Shown piece after piece: positions 3,408 through 11,181 of a stretch of 64,000 nt of DNA. Source of the DNA: Planotetraspora mira. Its GTDB lineage: Bacteria > Actinomycetota > Actinomycetes > Streptosporangiales > Streptosporangiaceae. The position numbers and the translations under genes are program-made. Position 1 is the first letter of the stretch. Each line of letters starts with the position of its first letter. The DNA lies in assembly GCF_016863275.1 (NCBI RefSeq), contig NZ_BOOO01000007.1, positions 56,345 through 120,344 on the forward strand, in the 5' to 3' direction. The notes below the pieces were generated by a model, which saw only the letters and a program-made list of their open reading frames with translations, searched no databases and was not told where the DNA came from.

Positions 3408-4394
3408 TCAGACGGGCAGGAAGATCCACGCGGCCGATTCCCTCCCGGGCTCGTAAGCGGAGTCGAGCCGCTTGCCGACCACTCCTGGCAATCCCTGCTC
3501 TCGCGCCGCCTGCCGTACGGCGGGCAGTCCGCCGGGCCAGCTCGGCGCGGTCTGCCAGCGCGGGCCCGCGAGCCGAAGATCCTCCAGCGCGGTTCGGCGG
3601 CGCTCGTACGGCTCGGCGAGAAGAGACCGCCCGTCGTCGTAGACCAGGTCGTAGCAGACATAGACCGAGCTGCCCGCCAGCGTGACGATCTCGCCGTCGA
3701 GCACGACGGCCCTGCTGCCCAGGGCAGGTCCCATCGCGCGGAGCCATCCGTGCCCCGCGGTGATGTCGGCGCCTCCCGGGGAGCGGACCGCCACCCTGCC
3801 GCCCTGGACGTGGACCAGTGCGCGCGCGCCACCCCAGGCGAACTCCCAGGCGAAGCGGGCGGCGTCGCGAGGCGCCCGGCTGCGGGTCACCGCTTCCATG
3901 GGCGACAGGTCGGCGGGCGGCGGCTCCCACGAGCCGTTCGGGGGATCCATCCGGTGGATCATCCAGTTCCGTCCGTGCGTCTGGAACAGGACATAGCGGC
4001 CGGACGCGCGGGAGCCGTTCAGCACGATCTTGACTTCGCGGTCGCTCCACTTCTCCGTCTCGTAGCCGCCGCGGTCCCAGACCGTCATGGTGCCGCCGCC
4101 GTACTCCCCCTGCGGGATCTCTCCTTCGAAGTCGGCGTACTCCATCGGGTGGTCCTCGGTGTGGACGGCGAGGTGGTTCGTCGCGGGGTCGGGAGGCAGG
4201 CCCTTCGGGATCGCCCAGGAGACCAGCACGCCGTCACGCTCGAGGCGCAGGTCCCAGTGCAGCGACCGCGCGTGGTGCTCCTGGATCACGAAGGTGTCGC
4301 CGCCGCCGCCTTCCCGAGGCGCGGCCTCGGGGATCGGCTCGCGCGTGCGCCGGGGGTCGCGCTTCCCTCTGTAGGGCTCGAGTCTGTCCGCCAC
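3408..4394 (-). CDS. LigD-type 3'-phosphoesterase fused to a degenerate ATP-dependent DNA-ligase domain
   Basis: A 328-residue protein. Residues about 33-155 match the 3'-phosphoesterase domain of bacterial NHEJ ligase LigD. His40, His46, Asp48, Arg50, His82 and Tyr86 have the spacing of the Pseudomonas LigD active site, so end-trimming activity is plausible. Residues about 175-328 resemble a ligase nucleotidyltransferase domain (VVLDGEIV; GVVGKRLDSAYEPGRES), but the motif I KxDG is replaced by EFAWGGARA, so the AMP-accepting lysine is missing. It is therefore predicted to be a phosphoesterase with a non-catalytic, perhaps DNA-binding, ligase-like module. No Ku or ligD polymerase gene is adjacent. 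Confidence 0.85.
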   Translation of the reverse strand: MADRLEPYRGKRDPRRTREPIPEAAPREGGGGDTFVIQEHHARSLHWDLRLERDGVLVSWAIPKGLPPDPATNHLAVHTEDHPMEYADFEGEIPQGEYGGGTMTVWDRGGYETEKWSDREVKIVLNGSRASGRYVLFQTHGRNWMIHRMDPPNGSWEPPPADLSPMEAVTRSRAPRDAARFAWEFAWGGARALVHVQGGRVAVRSPGGADITAGHGWLRAMGPALGSRAVVLDGEIVTLAGSSVYVCYDLVYDDGRSLLAEPYERRRTALEDLRLAGPRWQTAPSWPGGLPAVRQAAREQGLPGVVGKRLDSAYEPGRESAAWIFLPV

Positions 4395-4439: not shown

Positions 4440-5600
4440 TCAGGCCCGTTTGGCGATGGCGGTGATGAACGGCTGGACCAGCCGCGCCGCCAGCGGGCCG
4501 AACGCCGCGAGGATGAGCACGTATGCGGCGGCCACCGGCCCGAGGTCCGGATGGGCCCCTGACGCGACCGCCAGACCGGCGATCACGATGTTGAACTCGC
4601 CCCGGGGGATCAGCGCGATGCCGGCGCGGGCCCATCCCGCTCTCGCGATGCCCGCCCGGCGGGCGGCGTACGCCCCGGAGAGCAGCTTAGTGATCATGCT
4701 GACCACCGCGAGCAGGGCGGCGAGTCCGGCGACCGGGCCGATCTTCGCCGGGTCGGTCTGCAGACCGAAGAAGACGAAGAACACCGCCGCGAACAGGTCC
4801 CGCAGGGGCGCGAGCAACGCCTGGGCGTCCTCGGCCAGTTTCCCCGACAGCGCGATGCCGACCAGGAACGCGCCCACCGCCGCGGACACCTGTAACTGCT
4901 GCGCGACGCCGGCGACGAGCAGGGCGAGGCCGACCACCTTCAGCAGGAGCACCTCGGAGTTCGGGCTGGCGACGAACGCCTGGATGAGCCTGCCGAAACG
5001 TAACGCGACCACCAGCACGACGCTGACCGTCGCCAGCGCGATCGCCACGGTGATCGCGCCGCCGACCAGGCTCAGCCCGGCCAGCACGGCCGTCAGGACC
5101 GGCAGGTAGATGGCCATGGTCAGGTCTTCGAAGACCAGCAGCGACAACACCACCGGCGTCTCGCGGTTGCCGATCCAGCCGAGGTCGGACAGGACCTTCG
5201 CCGTGATGCCGGAAGACGTGGCATAGGTGACGCCGGCCATCGCCAGGGCGGCGACCGGACCCCAGCCGAGCAGGAGTGCGAACGCCGCCCCCGGCAGGGC
5301 GTTGAGCACCACGTCCACGACTCCCGCGCGGGCGTTGCCCTTCAGGCTGGTCACGAGTTCGTCGGCGTTGTACTCCAGGCCGAGGGTAAGCAGCAGGAGG
5401 ATGACGCCGAGTTCGGCGCCGACGGAGATGAACTCCTCACTGGTCGCGAGCGGCAGGATGCCGCCCGTGCCGAACGCCAGCCCGGCGATCAGGTAGAGGG
5501 GAATGGGTGAGATGCCGACGCGCAGGGCCAACGCCCCGAGGATGCCGAGCCCGAGCACGACCGCGCCGAACTCCAGGAACAGTATTGCCGTTTCGTGCAC
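4440..5600 (-). CDS. Cation:proton antiporter (CPA2, KhtU/KefB-like)
   Basis: A 386-residue, almost wholly hydrophobic protein with the 12-13 helices of the Na+/H+ exchanger superfamily. PIPLYLIAGLAFGTGGILPL and the helix around TLGLEYNADEL are typical of K+/H+ antiporters. It lacks the C-terminal NAD-binding RCK domain of KefB/KefC. That role is probably taken by the separate RCK_C protein encoded 8 bases upstream, a two-gene arrangement like KhtT-KhtU, which expels K+ in exchange for protons. Transported ion is inferred. Confidence 0.85.
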   Translation of the reverse strand: MHETAILFLEFGAVVLGLGILGALALRVGISPIPLYLIAGLAFGTGGILPLATSEEFISVGAELGVILLLLTLGLEYNADELVTSLKGNARAGVVDVVLNALPGAAFALLLGWGPVAALAMAGVTYATSSGITAKVLSDLGWIGNRETPVVLSLLVFEDLTMAIYLPVLTAVLAGLSLVGGAITVAIALATVSVVLVVALRFGRLIQAFVASPNSEVLLLKVVGLALLVAGVAQQLQVSAAVGAFLVGIALSGKLAEDAQALLAPLRDLFAAVFFVFFGLQTDPAKIGPVAGLAALLAVVSMITKLLSGAYAARRAGIARAGWARAGIALIPRGEFNIVIAGLAVASGAHPDLGPVAAAYVLILAAFGPLAARLVQPFITAIAKRA

Positions 5601-5608
5601 AAGCCGGC

Positions 5609-6091
5609 CTAACCGTTGGACAGGATGTCGGCGACGGCGGCGGTGCTCTCCGGGCTGCCCACCACGACGACGACGTCACCGTCGGCCAGCGGGAAGTCGG
5701 GTCCGGGGCTGGCGGCCACCTGTCCCGAGTGGACGATCGCCACGATGGAGGCGCCGGTCCGGGTGCGCACGCGGGCGTCCCCCATCGCGCGGCCGGCGTA
5801 CGGCGAGCCGGGCATGATCGGCAGTTGCAGGCTGACCAGCCCCTCGACCTCGCGGTGCAGGTCGTTGAGGCGCTGAACGATACGAGGAGCGCCGAGCAGC
5901 TCGGCCAGCGCGTCGGCCTCCTCGTCGTTCAGCTTCACGGTCTCGCAGGCGCGGTCGGGATCGTCGGGGTCGTAGATCACCAGGTCACGGCGGCCGGTCC
6001 GGTGGGAGACCACTCCGATCCGCCGTCCGGACCGTGTCGTGAACTCGTGCCGCAGCCCGATCCCCGGCAGCGCCGTCTGCTCGACCTCCAC
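5609..6091 (-). CDS. TrkA-C (RCK_C) regulatory subunit, KhtT-like
   Basis: A 160-residue cytoplasmic protein. The N-terminal part (about 1-65) contains GIGLRHEFTTRSGRRIGVV, matching KhtT-type antiporter regulators. The C-terminal RCK_C domain (about 80-158) ends with FPLADGDVVVVVGSPES, a standard TrkA-C signature; this domain in relatives binds ligands such as nucleotides including c-di-AMP. The length equals that of KhtT (about 165). It precedes the antiporter by 8 bases in one transcript and probably gates it. Confidence 0.85.
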   Translation of the reverse strand: MEVEQTALPGIGLRHEFTTRSGRRIGVVSHRTGRRDLVIYDPDDPDRACETVKLNDEEADALAELLGAPRIVQRLNDLHREVEGLVSLQLPIMPGSPYAGRAMGDARVRTRTGASIVAIVHSGQVAASPGPDFPLADGDVVVVVGSPESTAAVADILSNG

Positions 6092-6171
6092 CTGTACCTA
6101 CCGCCTCACTTGATCTCGGACCTTTCGGACCACCGTACCTAGACGGGCAAGTCGGCGGCGCACCCGCGCGT

Positions 6172-9100
6172 CTACGGTTTCCTGGCCCTCTGGATGACCT
6201 CCTCCGTCGTCAGCGGGCTTCTCGGATGGTGACTCAGGCACATGGGGGCCTGGATCCTGGCGAACGCCGTCCCCTCCACGCCCGCGTAGAACTCACCGGG
6301 GCCGAGGTGCCCCACATCCCCGATGGTGCTGTTCTTGGACCGCGCCACCTCCTTCGCCGCCTCGATCTGGGCGGGGCTGTTGAGCAGCCCGAAGAACTGG
6401 GTGGCGGAGTTCCCCGGGATCCGGTTGTGCAGCCCCTTCGGTGCCTGCGTCGCGAAGACGAGGCCGAGGCCGTACTTGCGGGCCTGCGAGGCGAGCGCCA
6501 GCGTGCTGTGCGTGCACGCGGTCATCGCTCCGGACGGCGCGAACGTCTGCGCCTCGTCCATGACGAACAGCCCGCCCAGCGGGCGATCGCCGGCCGGGTG
6601 CCTCCTGATCCAGGAGAACAGCGCCAACTGCAGCAGGTTGACGAAGCTCTGCCGTTGCTCGTCGGACGGCAGCCCGACGAAGCTGATCACTGATATCCGG
6701 GCCCTCTTGCCGGGCGGCGGGGTCAGCAGCACGCCGGGGTCGGCCGCCGCGCCCTCGCCGCCGAACAGCGGATCGCTGACCATCGTCGCCGTCAGGTTCT
6801 GCGCGACCTCCGCCGCGATCTTGTCGGCGTTGGCGAGCGCGCTGACCCCTTCCGGCAGTTCGGAGAGCAGCGCGATCAGGCCGTGGAGGCCGGCGGTGCC
6901 GTGTCGCCCGTAGTACTCGACGGCCTCCTTCAGGACCGCCCGGCCCAGATGCGCCTTCTGCGTCTTCGCGTCGAGTCTCGCCCGGGGCACGAGGGACGCG
7001 ACGGCGGCGCCGACCGCCTCCTTGAACTCGTCGGCGTCGTCCATCAGTCCGCTGAAATCCGGGAGCGGCTGGAAGGCCAGCGGGCGTCCCCCGACCCTGC
7101 CCGGCGTCCAGACCGTGACGTCGGTGTCCGCGAGGTATCGCTGTGCCCTGGCCGCGTCGCCGTCCCGCCATCCGGCGGGCGGTTCCGGCCAGCCGTCACC
7201 CAGGCGCGCGAGGTCGTTGTTGGGGTCGAGCACGATGGCCGACACCCCCTGGAGCGCGCACTCCTCGATCAGCCGGCGGATCAGCACGGTCTTCCCCGAG
7301 CCCGAGCCGGCGAAGATCGCGGTGTGCTTGCGCAACGCCTCCAGGTCCACCCGGGCGGGAGCCTGGTCGGCGGTCGTCCCGATCACGATCGACGGGGCGT
7401 CCGCGCTCCCGTCTGAGACGGCCGGCGCCCGTTTCGCCGCCGGCACGGCCGGGGTCTCTGGCGCGAGATCCCCAGCTGGGACGTCCGTCCTTCCTCTTCC
7501 TGAATCACCGCTCGTGGCGGCCACCGGGTCCGGCGTCGCGGTGTCCCCTCCTGCGTCGGGCATGCCGTACGGAACGGTCCACACGTCGCCGAGTGCGTCG
7601 CCGAGCAGCTTGATCTCACCGGTCGGCCGCCGGGCGGCGAGCCACGCATGGAGGTCGGGCGGGTTGTCCTTCAGCAGAGCGCGAAGGGCCGCGAGGATCT
7701 TCAGGTCCTCCTCCTCGACCTGCAGGGTCCTGCCGCCCGCCCGCTCGAAGGCCGCGACGGCCTCGCGCGTCTTGGCGCCGCCCGACCACTCCGTATTGCG
7801 CAGCAGGAACAACCGTCGTTTGCGGTCACCGATGATCAGGCCTGCCGCGACGGAGGCGTTGCGCATCCGGGTGAGCGCGGCGACCGCGTTCGTCGCCGCT
7901 ATCGCGCGGAAGCTCCAGTGCTCCTCATCCTCGGTGGCCTCATCGAGGCTTCGTCGTAGCCGAGCGTGCAGTGGCGGCTTCGCACTGGGCGGCGCGTCCT
8001 GGCTGTACACGCCTCCCGTCTCGCCCTGCTCAACGATCCACGCGCTCAGGCCCGCCGCCAGGAGTGCGGGCATCGCCGTGTCCTCCGTGGCCGGATCGAG
8101 CGCGGCCGCTGCGTCCGCCGCGACCTGCGCCGTGCTCCTCAGCTCGGCGAACCGCGTGTCGAGGTCCTCCAAGGCGACTCCCGGCGGCACGGGGATCCGC
8201 ACAGGCGGACGCGAGGTGACGCCGCCGACGACTTCGTCGTCCGCCACGGCCTCGAAGCTCTCCAGCTCCGTGATCTCTCCTCTGATCCGGCAGACCCTGA
8301 TATGGGCGTCGATCGCCTTCAGCAGTTGTCGGGGAGTGAGGCCGGGGGCGGTGGCGAACGCCGACGGGCTGACCGGCCAGGTGGGGTGGGGCGCGCGGAA
8401 GCCCATCGAGCGGAACTGGGTTCCGAGCCGCGTCTCGACCAGGGCCCGGCCGGTCTCCGCGTCGGGGATGGCATGGAGCGAGATCGGCCGGCGGAAGCGG
8501 TCCTGGACCGTGTCGGTGGCCTCCTTCTTGATGATCACCCAGGTAGCGGGGATGCACGAGACGACGGTGAGGGTCCTCCGCGTGAAATCCCTGAGCGCCA
8601 TCAGGCCGGCAGCGATCTGGTCGATGGCCAGCGCGTCGTGCCGGCGTCCTCCCAGGTGGACCACGGTCCTGGTCGTGGCGGTCGTGATGAGGGGGTCGAT
8701 CTGGTCAACCGCGACGACGGACGGGCCGGTGAGCGCGAGCAGGCGCGACAGGTCCCTGACGACCTCCTGCGGCGACTTCTGCCCTCGTCGTATGCCCCAC
8801 TTGGCACGTTCCCCCGGTTCCTCTTCCGGCTGGGAGCCGAGGAGGGTGTCCGCGACGTCCTGGGCGTGACGGTCCGCCGAGGCGCGCAGGACGAGGGCCC
8901 GCGCGACATCGCGGCTCTCCCGGCCCACGTGCCCGTCGAAGCTGATCAGCGAGTCGATGAAGCCGTCGAGGGCCTCCGTCGTGAGAGGCGCGTCACCGAT
9001 CACCGTGCGCCGCACCATGCGCGGGACGCCGATCTGCGACGACAGGCGGCGCAGGAACGCCTTGAGCTGGCTCTCGCCGTCCAGCTCGCGGGAAAGGCCG

Positions 9101-9429
9101 TCGAGCATCGCCACGACGACGCTGTCCCAGAAGATCCCGGCGTCGAGCAGTTCGACGAGGAAGAAGTAGCCTCCCTCGTCCTGCACCTTCTCCCGGATCC
9201 AGCCCAGCAGGTGCGTCTTGCCCGCGCCTCGCTGCCCCTGTACGACCAGGCCGATCGGGCTCGTGTCGGGACTGCGCGTCGCCTCGCCCACTCCGTCGAG
9301 GACGGCCTGAACCGTCTGTAGATTCAGCGCTTCGACATGGAACGGCGACGGATGCCACACGTCCTCGGTTCCGCTGACCCAGTTGAAGTCGAGTCTCTCC
9401 AGAGCGCCGTGCTCGTCGACCGCCATCAT
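6172..9429 (-). CDS. Double P-loop ATPase: N-terminal AAA domain + C-terminal HerA/DUF87-like domain
   Basis: A 1085-residue protein. The N-terminal AAA module has Walker A GQRGAGKTH (65-73) and a Walker B-like strand VVAVDQIDPL near 240. A central helical and linker region (about 400-680) contains a low-complexity stretch. The C-terminal module is HerA-like: Walker A GSGSGKT near 708, LDPNNDL shortly after, Walker B LFVMDEAQTFAP near 955, the ATQAPKG segment near 994, and an LNSPAQIEAAKEVA helix typical of DUF87 translocases. HerA proteins form hexameric DNA pumps that work with nucleases. It is the last gene of a three-gene operon; its ATG overlaps the preceding stop by 4 bases. A defence or DNA-processing role is inferred. 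Confidence 0.85.
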   Translation of the reverse strand: MMAVDEHGALERLDFNWVSGTEDVWHPSPFHVEALNLQTVQAVLDGVGEATRSPDTSPIGLVVQGQRGAGKTHLLGWIREKVQDEGGYFFLVELLDAGIFWDSVVVAMLDGLSRELDGESQLKAFLRRLSSQIGVPRMVRRTVIGDAPLTTEALDGFIDSLISFDGHVGRESRDVARALVLRASADRHAQDVADTLLGSQPEEEPGERAKWGIRRGQKSPQEVVRDLSRLLALTGPSVVAVDQIDPLITTATTRTVVHLGGRRHDALAIDQIAAGLMALRDFTRRTLTVVSCIPATWVIIKKEATDTVQDRFRRPISLHAIPDAETGRALVETRLGTQFRSMGFRAPHPTWPVSPSAFATAPGLTPRQLLKAIDAHIRVCRIRGEITELESFEAVADDEVVGGVTSRPPVRIPVPPGVALEDLDTRFAELRSTAQVAADAAAALDPATEDTAMPALLAAGLSAWIVEQGETGGVYSQDAPPSAKPPLHARLRRSLDEATEDEEHWSFRAIAATNAVAALTRMRNASVAAGLIIGDRKRRLFLLRNTEWSGGAKTREAVAAFERAGGRTLQVEEEDLKILAALRALLKDNPPDLHAWLAARRPTGEIKLLGDALGDVWTVPYGMPDAGGDTATPDPVAATSGDSGRGRTDVPAGDLAPETPAVPAAKRAPAVSDGSADAPSIVIGTTADQAPARVDLEALRKHTAIFAGSGSGKTVLIRRLIEECALQGVSAIVLDPNNDLARLGDGWPEPPAGWRDGDAARAQRYLADTDVTVWTPGRVGGRPLAFQPLPDFSGLMDDADEFKEAVGAAVASLVPRARLDAKTQKAHLGRAVLKEAVEYYGRHGTAGLHGLIALLSELPEGVSALANADKIAAEVAQNLTATMVSDPLFGGEGAAADPGVLLTPPPGKRARISVISFVGLPSDEQRQSFVNLLQLALFSWIRRHPAGDRPLGGLFVMDEAQTFAPSGAMTACTHSTLALASQARKYGLGLVFATQAPKGLHNRIPGNSATQFFGLLNSPAQIEAAKEVARSKNSTIGDVGHLGPGEFYAGVEGTAFARIQAPMCLSHHPRSPLTTEEVIQRARKP

Positions 9430-10034
9430 GCTCCGATCGAGATGAGGTGCTTGTCCTGATCGCCGATGATCAGCGCCGCTTCCCGGTCCCGCCGGGTGAG
9501 GGCCTTCTGATTCGACTCGGGGACGATGTTCACGTCGGGCATGGCGGCCATCCGCCGCAGCGTCTCATCGGCCTTCGTCCTGGTGACATCGCGGAGAAGG
9601 ACGCGCAGTTCCGTGAGGCTCACCCAGCCTCCCGGTTCCATGACGAGCTCACCGTAGGCCTCGCGGATGAGGGCCTCGACATCGGACGCGGGCCCGAAGA
9701 CGTCGGCGAGCCTGCGATCCGTCCGCTCCATGAACCCCTGGACACCGCCCATCAGGGCCCGGGCCATCGCCCAGGGCGACCCGGTCGCCTTGACCGTCCC
9801 GGTGCGGAACTCCTCGGCCACGCGCGCCCAGCCGGCGTCGGTCAGCATGTGAACGTACGCACGGCCCTGCTTCCAACTGTCGACGAGTTTCAGCTCGTTC
9901 AACGTCCGGCGGTTGGCGCCGTCGAGCGTGATGCCGTGGCGCGCCCTCATCTCGGTGTTGGAGATCTCACCCGCCTCCACCATGAGCACGACGAGGGCGG
10001 CGATCTGGGGCAGGGACAGATTCGTGTCAGACAT
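9426..10034 (-). CDS. Conserved hypothetical protein with helix-turn-helix-like start, middle gene of HerA operon
   Basis: I do not recognise a named family. The 202-residue protein is soluble and mostly helical. Residues about 8-60 (ALVVLMVEAGEISNTEMRARHGITLDGANRRTLNELKLV) look like a winged-helix domain. A middle segment with an FMERTDRRLADVFG helix is followed by a C-terminal helical bundle. It overlaps the nuclease gene upstream by 8 bases and the HerA-like gene downstream by 4, so the three are translationally coupled and probably act as a complex. AAGGA lies 8 bases before the ATG. An adaptor or DNA-recognition subunit is the most economical guess. Confidence 0.7.
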   Translation of the reverse strand: MSDTNLSLPQIAALVVLMVEAGEISNTEMRARHGITLDGANRRTLNELKLVDSWKQGRAYVHMLTDAGWARVAEEFRTGTVKATGSPWAMARALMGGVQGFMERTDRRLADVFGPASDVEALIREAYGELVMEPGGWVSLTELRVLLRDVTRTKADETLRRMAAMPDVNIVPESNQKALTRRDREAALIIGDQDKHLISIGA

Positions 10035-11181
10035 GGCGTGATCCTTCGAACGTTCCAGCGCGGCGGCTCACGACGAACCGCTCCAACTGGCGGACGACCG
10101 TTTCTAAATCGGAGGCGATCTGGGCGTTGGTGAAGCGCAGCACGGCGTAGCCGTCCAACTGGAGTTGCACGTCGCGGCGCCGGTCGGCCTCGAACCTGAC
10201 CGCCTCCCGGTGTTCGGGGCCGTCGATCTCGACCACACATCGCTCCTGCCGCCAGAGGAGATCCAGCCGTATCGACAGGGCGAGCGGATGCGACTGGTGG
10301 GTCTGGTTCCAGGCCCGCCCGGCGGCCCAGTCGCACACGGCCAGCGCCCGCTCCAGGGCCTGCTCGGCGGCGCTCGCCGGGTGCGGACGCCCGGCGACGG
10401 CCGGATATCGCACAGCCGGTCGCCTCAGATCTGGTTCCCGCATGCCGGACGGCGGCAGGAAGGCGCCCCGGTACGCCGCCGGAGCGGATCCGGCCCGTGC
10501 GGGTCCTTCGGACGCGTGAGCGGTCACGGTCGGCCGTACAGAGGTCTCCGGCACGTCGCGGGCGATGGCGGCGACCTCGGCCGGCAGCCTCACCATCACG
10601 GTCTCCAGGCGATCGACGGAGGCGAGGCGAGCGCCGGTGAGCCACACGCCCATCCCGGCACGGTGGGCCAGCCACTCACCGCCCGCGAGCAGCACGTCCT
10701 CGTCCCGGGCGGAAAGGCCCTCAGGCACGTCGATCAGCAACGCCACCCGCGGGCGGCCGAACGCCGCCGCGAGGACACGGGCGAGGCCGGCGGCCCGCAC
10801 CTCAGGGGGAAACCGAGTGGGTCCCGGCGCCTCACCTCTGAGGGACGTCTGCGCGAGGTCGGCCACGAAGGGGCCGAAATGATGCGTGCCGGAGGCCATC
10901 TCCAAGGCGAGCGCACGGACCGCGCCGACGCCTGCTCCCCCGGGCGCGATGCCTTCGGCGTCCGGCAGCCAGGCCGGATAGAGGGCGACGGCGGCCGTCT
11001 CGAGCTCGGACAACACCGACTCGACCATGGCGGACGCGGTGGGTGCGGCGGTCGCGGCGTAAGTGAGGACGGCGGGGGCCCCGTCGGGCAGCGGTTCCAG
11101 GGACAGGGCGAGGGCCTGGGGACTCGCTCCCGTCAGCCCTATGACGCGGTTGGTCGGCAGCTCCGCCCACGAACGCGCCAC
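10027..11181 (-). CDS. DUF559/Vsr-like endonuclease with an N-terminal P-loop-like domain lacking Walker A
   Basis: A 384-residue protein. The last ~115 residues are a DUF559 restriction-endonuclease-like domain: SIRLDLLW (Asp307), VVEIDG (Glu318, Asp320), FEADRRRDVQLQLDGYAVLRF and an aliphatic terminal helix, giving the D...ExD metal-binding set of this fold. The first ~210 residues alternate strands and helices as in P-loop NTPases (VALLIDVPEG at 147-156; VWLTG at 179-183) but I find no Walker A. A proline/arginine-rich linker (about 215-265) joins them. GTG start with AGGTGA upstream. First gene of the operon; it probably supplies the nuclease activity of the HerA system. Confidence 0.75.
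   Translation of the reverse strand: MARSWAELPTNRVIGLTGASPQALALSLEPLPDGAPAVLTYAATAAPTASAMVESVLSELETAAVALYPAWLPDAEGIAPGGAGVGAVRALALEMASGTHHFGPFVADLAQTSLRGEAPGPTRFPPEVRAAGLARVLAAAFGRPRVALLIDVPEGLSARDEDVLLAGGEWLAHRAGMGVWLTGARLASVDRLETVMVRLPAEVAAIARDVPETSVRPTVTAHASEGPARAGSAPAAYRGAFLPPSGMREPDLRRPAVRYPAVAGRPHPASAAEQALERALAVCDWAAGRAWNQTHQSHPLALSIRLDLLWRQERCVVEIDGPEHREAVRFEADRRRDVQLQLDGYAVLRFTNAQIASDLETVVRQLERFVVSRRAGTFEGSRHV

Follow-up and report, generated by a model that had tools for sequence, protein, structure and literature searches.

A predicted nuclease, a small partner protein and a predicted double-ATPase HerA motor in Planotetraspora mira: a candidate defence system with a variable partner gene

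What do three overlapping genes, one for a predicted nuclease and one for a predicted motor with two ATPase domains, do in the soil actinobacterium Planotetraspora mira? The genes lie on the minus strand of a stretch of 64,000 nucleotides (the window, G000:C7:56345-120344, from contig NZ_BOOO01000007.1), whose coordinates are used below. Gene N (11181-10027) overlaps gene H (10034-9426) by 8 bases, and H overlaps gene A (9429-6172) by 4. An earlier note made from the letters alone had read them as one operon encoding a HerA-based candidate defence system; the open reading frame coordinates bear out the operon with both overlaps, and the defence inference is supported. The trio is probably an anti-invader system, predicted to capture foreign double-stranded DNA with its motor and to cut it with its nuclease. 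What speaks for this reading is the order and overlap of the genes, catalytic residues that never vary, HerA and nuclease folds by prediction, occurrence in two phyla, patchy presence with a clean empty site in one genus, and replacement of the nuclease by unrelated partners, one pair of which is independently a defence candidate in PADLOC (PDC-M02).

The proteins of the N-H-A unit

Gene A (6172-9429) encodes 1085 residues, in which an AAA+ domain at the N terminus and a HerA/FtsK-type motor at the C terminus share one chain. Conservation was counted over 115 A proteins, a set that leaves out loci L046, L047, L048 and L053 (A below 1000 residues) and adds L138 and L139. The AAA+ domain with its helical lid (residues 1-385, 8275-9429) matches Pfam AAA_22 at E 8.5e-9 and also AAA_16 at 2.1e-5, and agrees with AlphaFold secondary structure; the lid is our own reading. 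Its Walker A (residues 65-72, 9214-9237) keeps G65, G70, K71 and T72 in 115/115, as its Walker B (residues 238-245, 8695-8718) keeps D242, Q243 and D245 of the motif D242-Q243-x-D245. Gln (Q243) thus stands where a catalytic Glu is usual in every member, the Methylobacterium relative included. The motor (residues 677-1076, 6202-7401) matches DUF87/HerA at E 3.4e-11. K713 and T714 of its Walker A (residues 706-714, 7288-7314) and D958 and E959 of its Walker B (residues 954-961, 6547-6570) are invariant, as are R984 (6478-6480), a candidate arginine finger just before the AlphaFold core strand 988-994, and Q995 (6445-6447), the Gln that ends that strand; a Gln at the end of a core strand is described as a HerA/FtsK hallmark (PMC10853773). 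The two complete P-loops of the earlier note, the second HerA-like, are thereby upheld, with invariant Walker A lysines in both. Between the ATPases lies a middle alpha/beta domain (residues 417-617, 7579-8181) of order alpha-beta-beta-beta-alpha-beta, modelled with high pLDDT, in which no catalytic motif was recognised; it is possibly an inactive nuclease-like fold. A fold search with the whole A model bears on the HerA part, which filled its list; residues 1-676, middle domain included, were not reached.

Some copies of A are broken. At L053 (genome G039) two overlapping frames, called at 888 and 343 residues, stand in place of one A, through either gene decay or a sequencing error. Short fragments at G022:C56:62957-63394 and G201:C4:213446-213736 (open frames of 161 and 163 residues) are apparently decayed copies; G022 has a full A elsewhere, and in G201 the fragment is the only A match.

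Gene N (10027-11181) encodes 384 residues. Residues 1-198 (10588-11181) form an alpha/beta domain that resembles P-loop NTPases but has no Walker A, as had been proposed, and residues 268-375 (10057-10380) form a PD-(D/E)XK/Vsr-like nuclease domain that matches Pfam DUF559 at E 2.4e-11. The residues singled out earlier, D307, E318 and D320, lie within codons D307 to D320 (10222-10263) and are invariant in 73/73 N proteins, those below 281 residues left out. Gene H (9426-10034), directly before A, encodes 202 residues in two conserved halves with a linker of variable length between them. No Pfam family matches it; one of 16 relatives shows a weak HTH_27 match (E 0.086), and the source annotation of some relatives reads "MarR family".

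Searched against NCBIfam, the trio reached no cut-off. The search of a defence collection that the earlier note had proposed, with PADLOC models below E 0.001, matched the motor of A only, best with mad8 (3.2e-19) and next with HerA (9.1e-10). A scan for promoters and terminators found none.

We infer a mechanism in which H-A is a DNA-capturing motor. The HerA part of A would form a hexameric translocase, as HerA does, its ring running along double-stranded DNA, while the AAA+ part with the invariant Asp-Gln Walker B would act as an ATP-bound switch or loader rather than a fast ATPase, and H as an adaptor between the motor and either DNA or the effector. N may be silent alone and become active by docking onto the motor once this is loaded, by analogy with DUF4297-HerA, for which activation by assembly is described (PMC11291478); it would then be the cutter, selective or suicidal. 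Interception of invader DNA is taken from the capture-system proposal (PMC10853773). Other lineages would combine the H-A chassis with effectors of other kinds.

A constant H-A pair and its changing partners

Across 117 distinct loci, a set from which the short rows L001-L014 (largely duplicates) and L055-L057 were dropped, together with four duplicates recognised from the C-terminal 300 residues of A, H stands directly before A in 114, overlapping it by 4 bases in 69 and by 1 base in 33. The remaining three lack a called H: L047 and L048 hold A fragments only, and the H frame of L136 is present (E 8.7e-62) and miscalled. What precedes H varies. Partner identities come mostly from our own cluster profiles, with Pfam or PADLOC applied to representatives only. 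N precedes H in 70/114 of these loci and a gene pair, C4-C3, in 14/114. A further six have c22, a protein of 600-730 residues with weak AAA or TPR matches, 6-63 bases away, and one (L133) has a TIR gene and a ParA-like/CATASP gene 9 bases away. Five loci (L072, L078, L082, L086, L101), all from Micromonosporaceae and forming one A clade (SH-aLRT 100), have a divergent WD40-repeat gene, c30, of about 1350 residues, and a Trypco1 gene, about 300 bp from H-A; the WD40-type assignment of c30 is from Pfam, and its trypsin and STAND parts were read by eye from the sequence.

The C4-C3 pair is the PADLOC candidate PDC-M02: in representative L043, C4 matches PDC-M02A (E 1.9e-71; also DUF4365) and C3 matches PDC-M02B (5.4e-141). 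Neither has a detectable relation to N. PDC-M02B occurs in 44/200 genomes of the order, beside A by coordinates in 13 and without H-A beside it in 31; at 14 PDC-M02 places from the latter genomes, both PDC-M02 genes were found at 14/14 and A, H and N at 0/14. One genome, G108, carries both an N-type and a PDC-M02-type locus. At L110 an intact H-A is directly preceded by what is left of the two PDC-M02 genes (5484-7391; E 9e-6, 5e-9). Several stand-alone PDC-M02 loci (L140-L146) lie near genes that look defensive by eye (helicases, AAA ATPases, McrBC-like). No paper on PDC-M02 was among those listed by a search of the open-licence literature, to which all the literature searches reported here were confined.

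On a quick tree of the 115 A proteins, partner labels need 18 changes, against a mean of 41.8 when shuffled; partners are thus inherited over long stretches yet swapped repeatedly. The PDC-M02 label changes at least four times on starred branches. In one genus the unit is also present or absent as a whole: where G058 has a 5.2-kb stretch with N-H-A, G095 has about 0.33 kb, in which no match to the three proteins was found, the flanks being collinear on both sides at 82-89% identity.

From these patterns comes a broader proposal, which we hold tentatively and rate somewhat short of probable: that H-A is an effector-agnostic immune chassis, a constant adaptor and double-ATPase motor that would read or capture invader DNA and into which unrelated executioners are plugged (DUF559 nuclease, PDC-M02, STAND-like, TIR, trypsin/WD40). 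Were it true, one trigger machine with interchangeable outputs would extend from actinobacteria to proteobacteria. If the trio is indeed a defence system, one motor pair that occurs with as many as five kinds of partner, two of them at different loci in G108, would be a natural experiment in modular immunity, and the way in which a HerA ring switches on its various effectors could be tested. In A, an AAA+ domain whose Walker B is invariably Asp-Gln shares a chain with an intact HerA motor, which would make it well suited to the question whether an ATPase that is slow by nature serves as an infection switch. The defence reading would also add a widespread platform in actinobacteria (Streptosporangium, Micromonospora, Frankia, mycobacterial relatives), one that PADLOC matches only through the generic HerA and mad8 models.

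Distribution and the weighing of explanations

Among 120 genomes of the family, A occurs in 46 and N in 37. The N of 33/37 is of full type and adjoins A by coordinates in 33/33, counting G118, whose pair lies across contig ends; the other four matches cover residues 306-377 only and come without A. Thirteen A-bearing family genomes lack a full N. A is present in 78/200 genomes of the order and in 46/394 genomes (18/138 genera) of the class. A genome scan kept the best 80 of 306 confirmed loci, from Planotetraspora, Micromonospora, Actinoplanes, Frankia, Kribbella, Pseudonocardia, Amycolatopsis, Rhodococcus and Mycobacterium among others; because of this choice the partner counts lean to close relatives. 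The nearest named relatives of the trio are in Planotetraspora (A 85% identity). Co-occurrence of the trio outside close relatives, on which the earlier note had made its inference depend, is seen: the Methylobacterium aquaticum megaplasmid pMaq22A_1p carries the complete order N-H-A, with N of 353 residues (DUF559 E 4.5e-13), H of 226 (profile E 2.3e-21) and A of 1084. Since Methylobacterium is alphaproteobacterial, the trio crosses phyla.

Several observations weigh against the defence and chassis readings. The neighbours of the trio in the window are ordinary genes (LigD-like, Na/H exchanger, TrkA-C, Usp by Pfam), and in the Planotetraspora loci fetched with flanks the trio keeps one place; it therefore lies outside any obvious defence island here, enrichment of defence genes not having been tested. 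No match was found in 50,697 phage records or in viral contigs, and just 3/72,556 plasmid records match. Two of these three, an 11.85-Mb Nonomuraea record and a Tsukamurella record with ribosomal genes, look chromosomal by reason of that size and those genes; the third is the megaplasmid. Eighteen of the 114 H-A pairs, many of them mycobacterial, have no recognised partner or have some other gene, and so H-A may act without N; the 18 include L110, with its PDC-M02 remnants, and L130, at a contig end. The STAND-like label of c22 comes from a by-eye reading and weak Pfam matches (E 0.009-0.033), and the functional link of the trypsin/WD40 partner is weak because that gene is on the other strand, some 300 bp away. 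The program behind the quick A tree warns of long branches (L108 with L133). Finally, a wHTH fold for H, membership of the AAA+ domain in ORC/CDC6 and an inactive nuclease in the middle domain are candidate assignments.

Mycobacterial H-A pairs without a recognised partner are L111, L115, L116, L118, L121, L125-L128, L131 and L136; some share their neighbourhood with the N-H-A of relatives (L119, L123, L132, L137), and in these partnerless loci N was either lost or replaced by something acting in trans. In Tsukamurella tyrosinosolvens (L138, NZ_LR134464.1, 3529-12567), rplN and rpsQ are separated by VapBC, N-H-A and a helicase, a block that interrupts the ribosomal protein operon; although its label says plasmid, the record has ribosomal genes, and is therefore probably a piece of chromosome.

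The trio might instead process DNA ends as housekeeping, resecting or repairing the cell's own DNA with motor and nuclease like archaeal NurA-HerA. A HerA motor with a nuclease partner, the single fixed place in the Planotetraspora loci fetched, the absence of phage matches and a LigD-like gene nearby would all suit this account; that gene, third downstream of A (3408-4394, minus strand), encodes 328 residues with a LigD 3'-phosphoesterase domain and a partial DNA ligase domain match. The small share of class genomes that have A, the empty but otherwise collinear site of a congener, and a nuclease slot filled elsewhere by unrelated genes, TIR and defence candidates among them, make it unlikely. 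The earlier note had held its inference open to a match with a housekeeping system, and no NurA was found by Pfam in the trio and six neighbours or by NCBIfam in the trio. Less probable still, and in our judgement very unlikely, is a module for conjugation or transposition, either domesticated or mobile to this day, with A as a coupling-protein-like pump and the unit mainly serving its own transfer: no integrase, relaxase or transposase is annotated at the Tsukamurella locus where the unit is inserted, the two loci checked for flanking repeats at the ends of the unit had none, and the nuclease active site is kept in 73/73.

A version of the defence reading, overlapping with it in probability, is abortive suicide, in which A and H would sense replicating or translocated DNA and N would cut all DNA, the host's included, the cell dying before phage release. 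Among the genes found in place of N are a TIR gene and a divergent gene of the trypsin/WD40 type, both of kinds linked to suicide systems (general knowledge and PMC8195603); DUF4297-HerA is reported to act by abortive infection (PMC11291478), and N could be kept inactive by its own P-loop-like domain. Yet the present data fit selective cutting as well as suicide, and no antitoxin or self-marking methylase was seen by Pfam among the six neighbours. We regard suicide as possible though rather doubtful, and retain the more general prediction that the trio captures and cuts invading DNA.

Relation to known systems

Several systems share parts with the trio. NurA-HerA likewise joins a HerA motor to a nuclease, whereas the trio has no NurA match, for which identity was rejected, and has an AAA+ fusion and a patchy distribution. 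Compared with DUF4297-HerA and Sir2-HerA (Nezha), the trio is without a DUF4297 or Sir2 domain and has an extra AAA+ domain and the constant gene H; identity was rejected because no such Pfam or PADLOC match was found in N or H. The nuclease of the trio, unlike that of DndFGH, is of DUF559 type and on a separate gene, and DndFGH was rejected since neither DndF nor DndG of PADLOC matched at E 1. MADS supplies, in mad8, the best PADLOC match of the A motor (E 3.2e-19), and works with DNA methylation (PMC12904381); no other MADS model matched the trio, no methylase was found by Pfam among the six neighbours, and MADS was rejected. PDC-M02 takes the place of the nuclease before H-A at 14 loci, but mostly occurs without H-A beside it (31/44 genomes).

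Neither a single-chain AAA-HerA fusion with a DUF559 effector nor the swap with PDC-M02 was found in print among open-licence papers, preprints and supplements excluded; DUF87 with DUF559 gave nothing, DUF559 with HerA incidental mentions only, and DUF559 with phage defense a Vsr-like protein. The BREX-related capture (BRC) systems share an ORC/Cdc6 AAA+ protein with a HerA/FtsK translocase and an effector, but have seven components, with PglZ, DUF6079, STAND, DUF4007, GNAT and TGT, unlike the trio (PMC12839542); the main text of that paper does not mention DUF559.

The closest parallel is the ORC/CDC6 class of HerA/FtsK capture systems (Rakesh, Aravind and Krishnan 2024, PMC10853773), in which one operon likewise holds an AAA+ ATPase, a HerA/FtsK motor and a nuclease that is active, along with wHTH-type components, for which H is the candidate here, and which, like the trio, is predicted to intercept invader DNA; DUF559 is absent from the main text, supplements lying outside the search. 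Two of the five defining features of the class are found here and none is contradicted: a HerA/FtsK motor in which an Arg finger shortly precedes the Gln sensor that ends core strand 4, and, judging by its residues, an active restriction-type endonuclease. For the other three, an ORC/CDC6-family AAA+ ATPase, an inactive nuclease domain inserted between the AAA+ core and a C-terminal wHTH, and a wHTH component, the trio offers candidates in the AAA_22/AAA_16 domain of A, the middle domain of A and H. By analogy the trio may work as these predicted systems do, but with two features of five it is not filed as a proven member. It differs in that AAA+ and HerA are joined in a single chain around a middle domain of candidate fold, that the nuclease is a DUF559 domain fused to a P-loop-like domain, and that in other loci PDC-M02, STAND-like or TIR genes stand in place of this nuclease.
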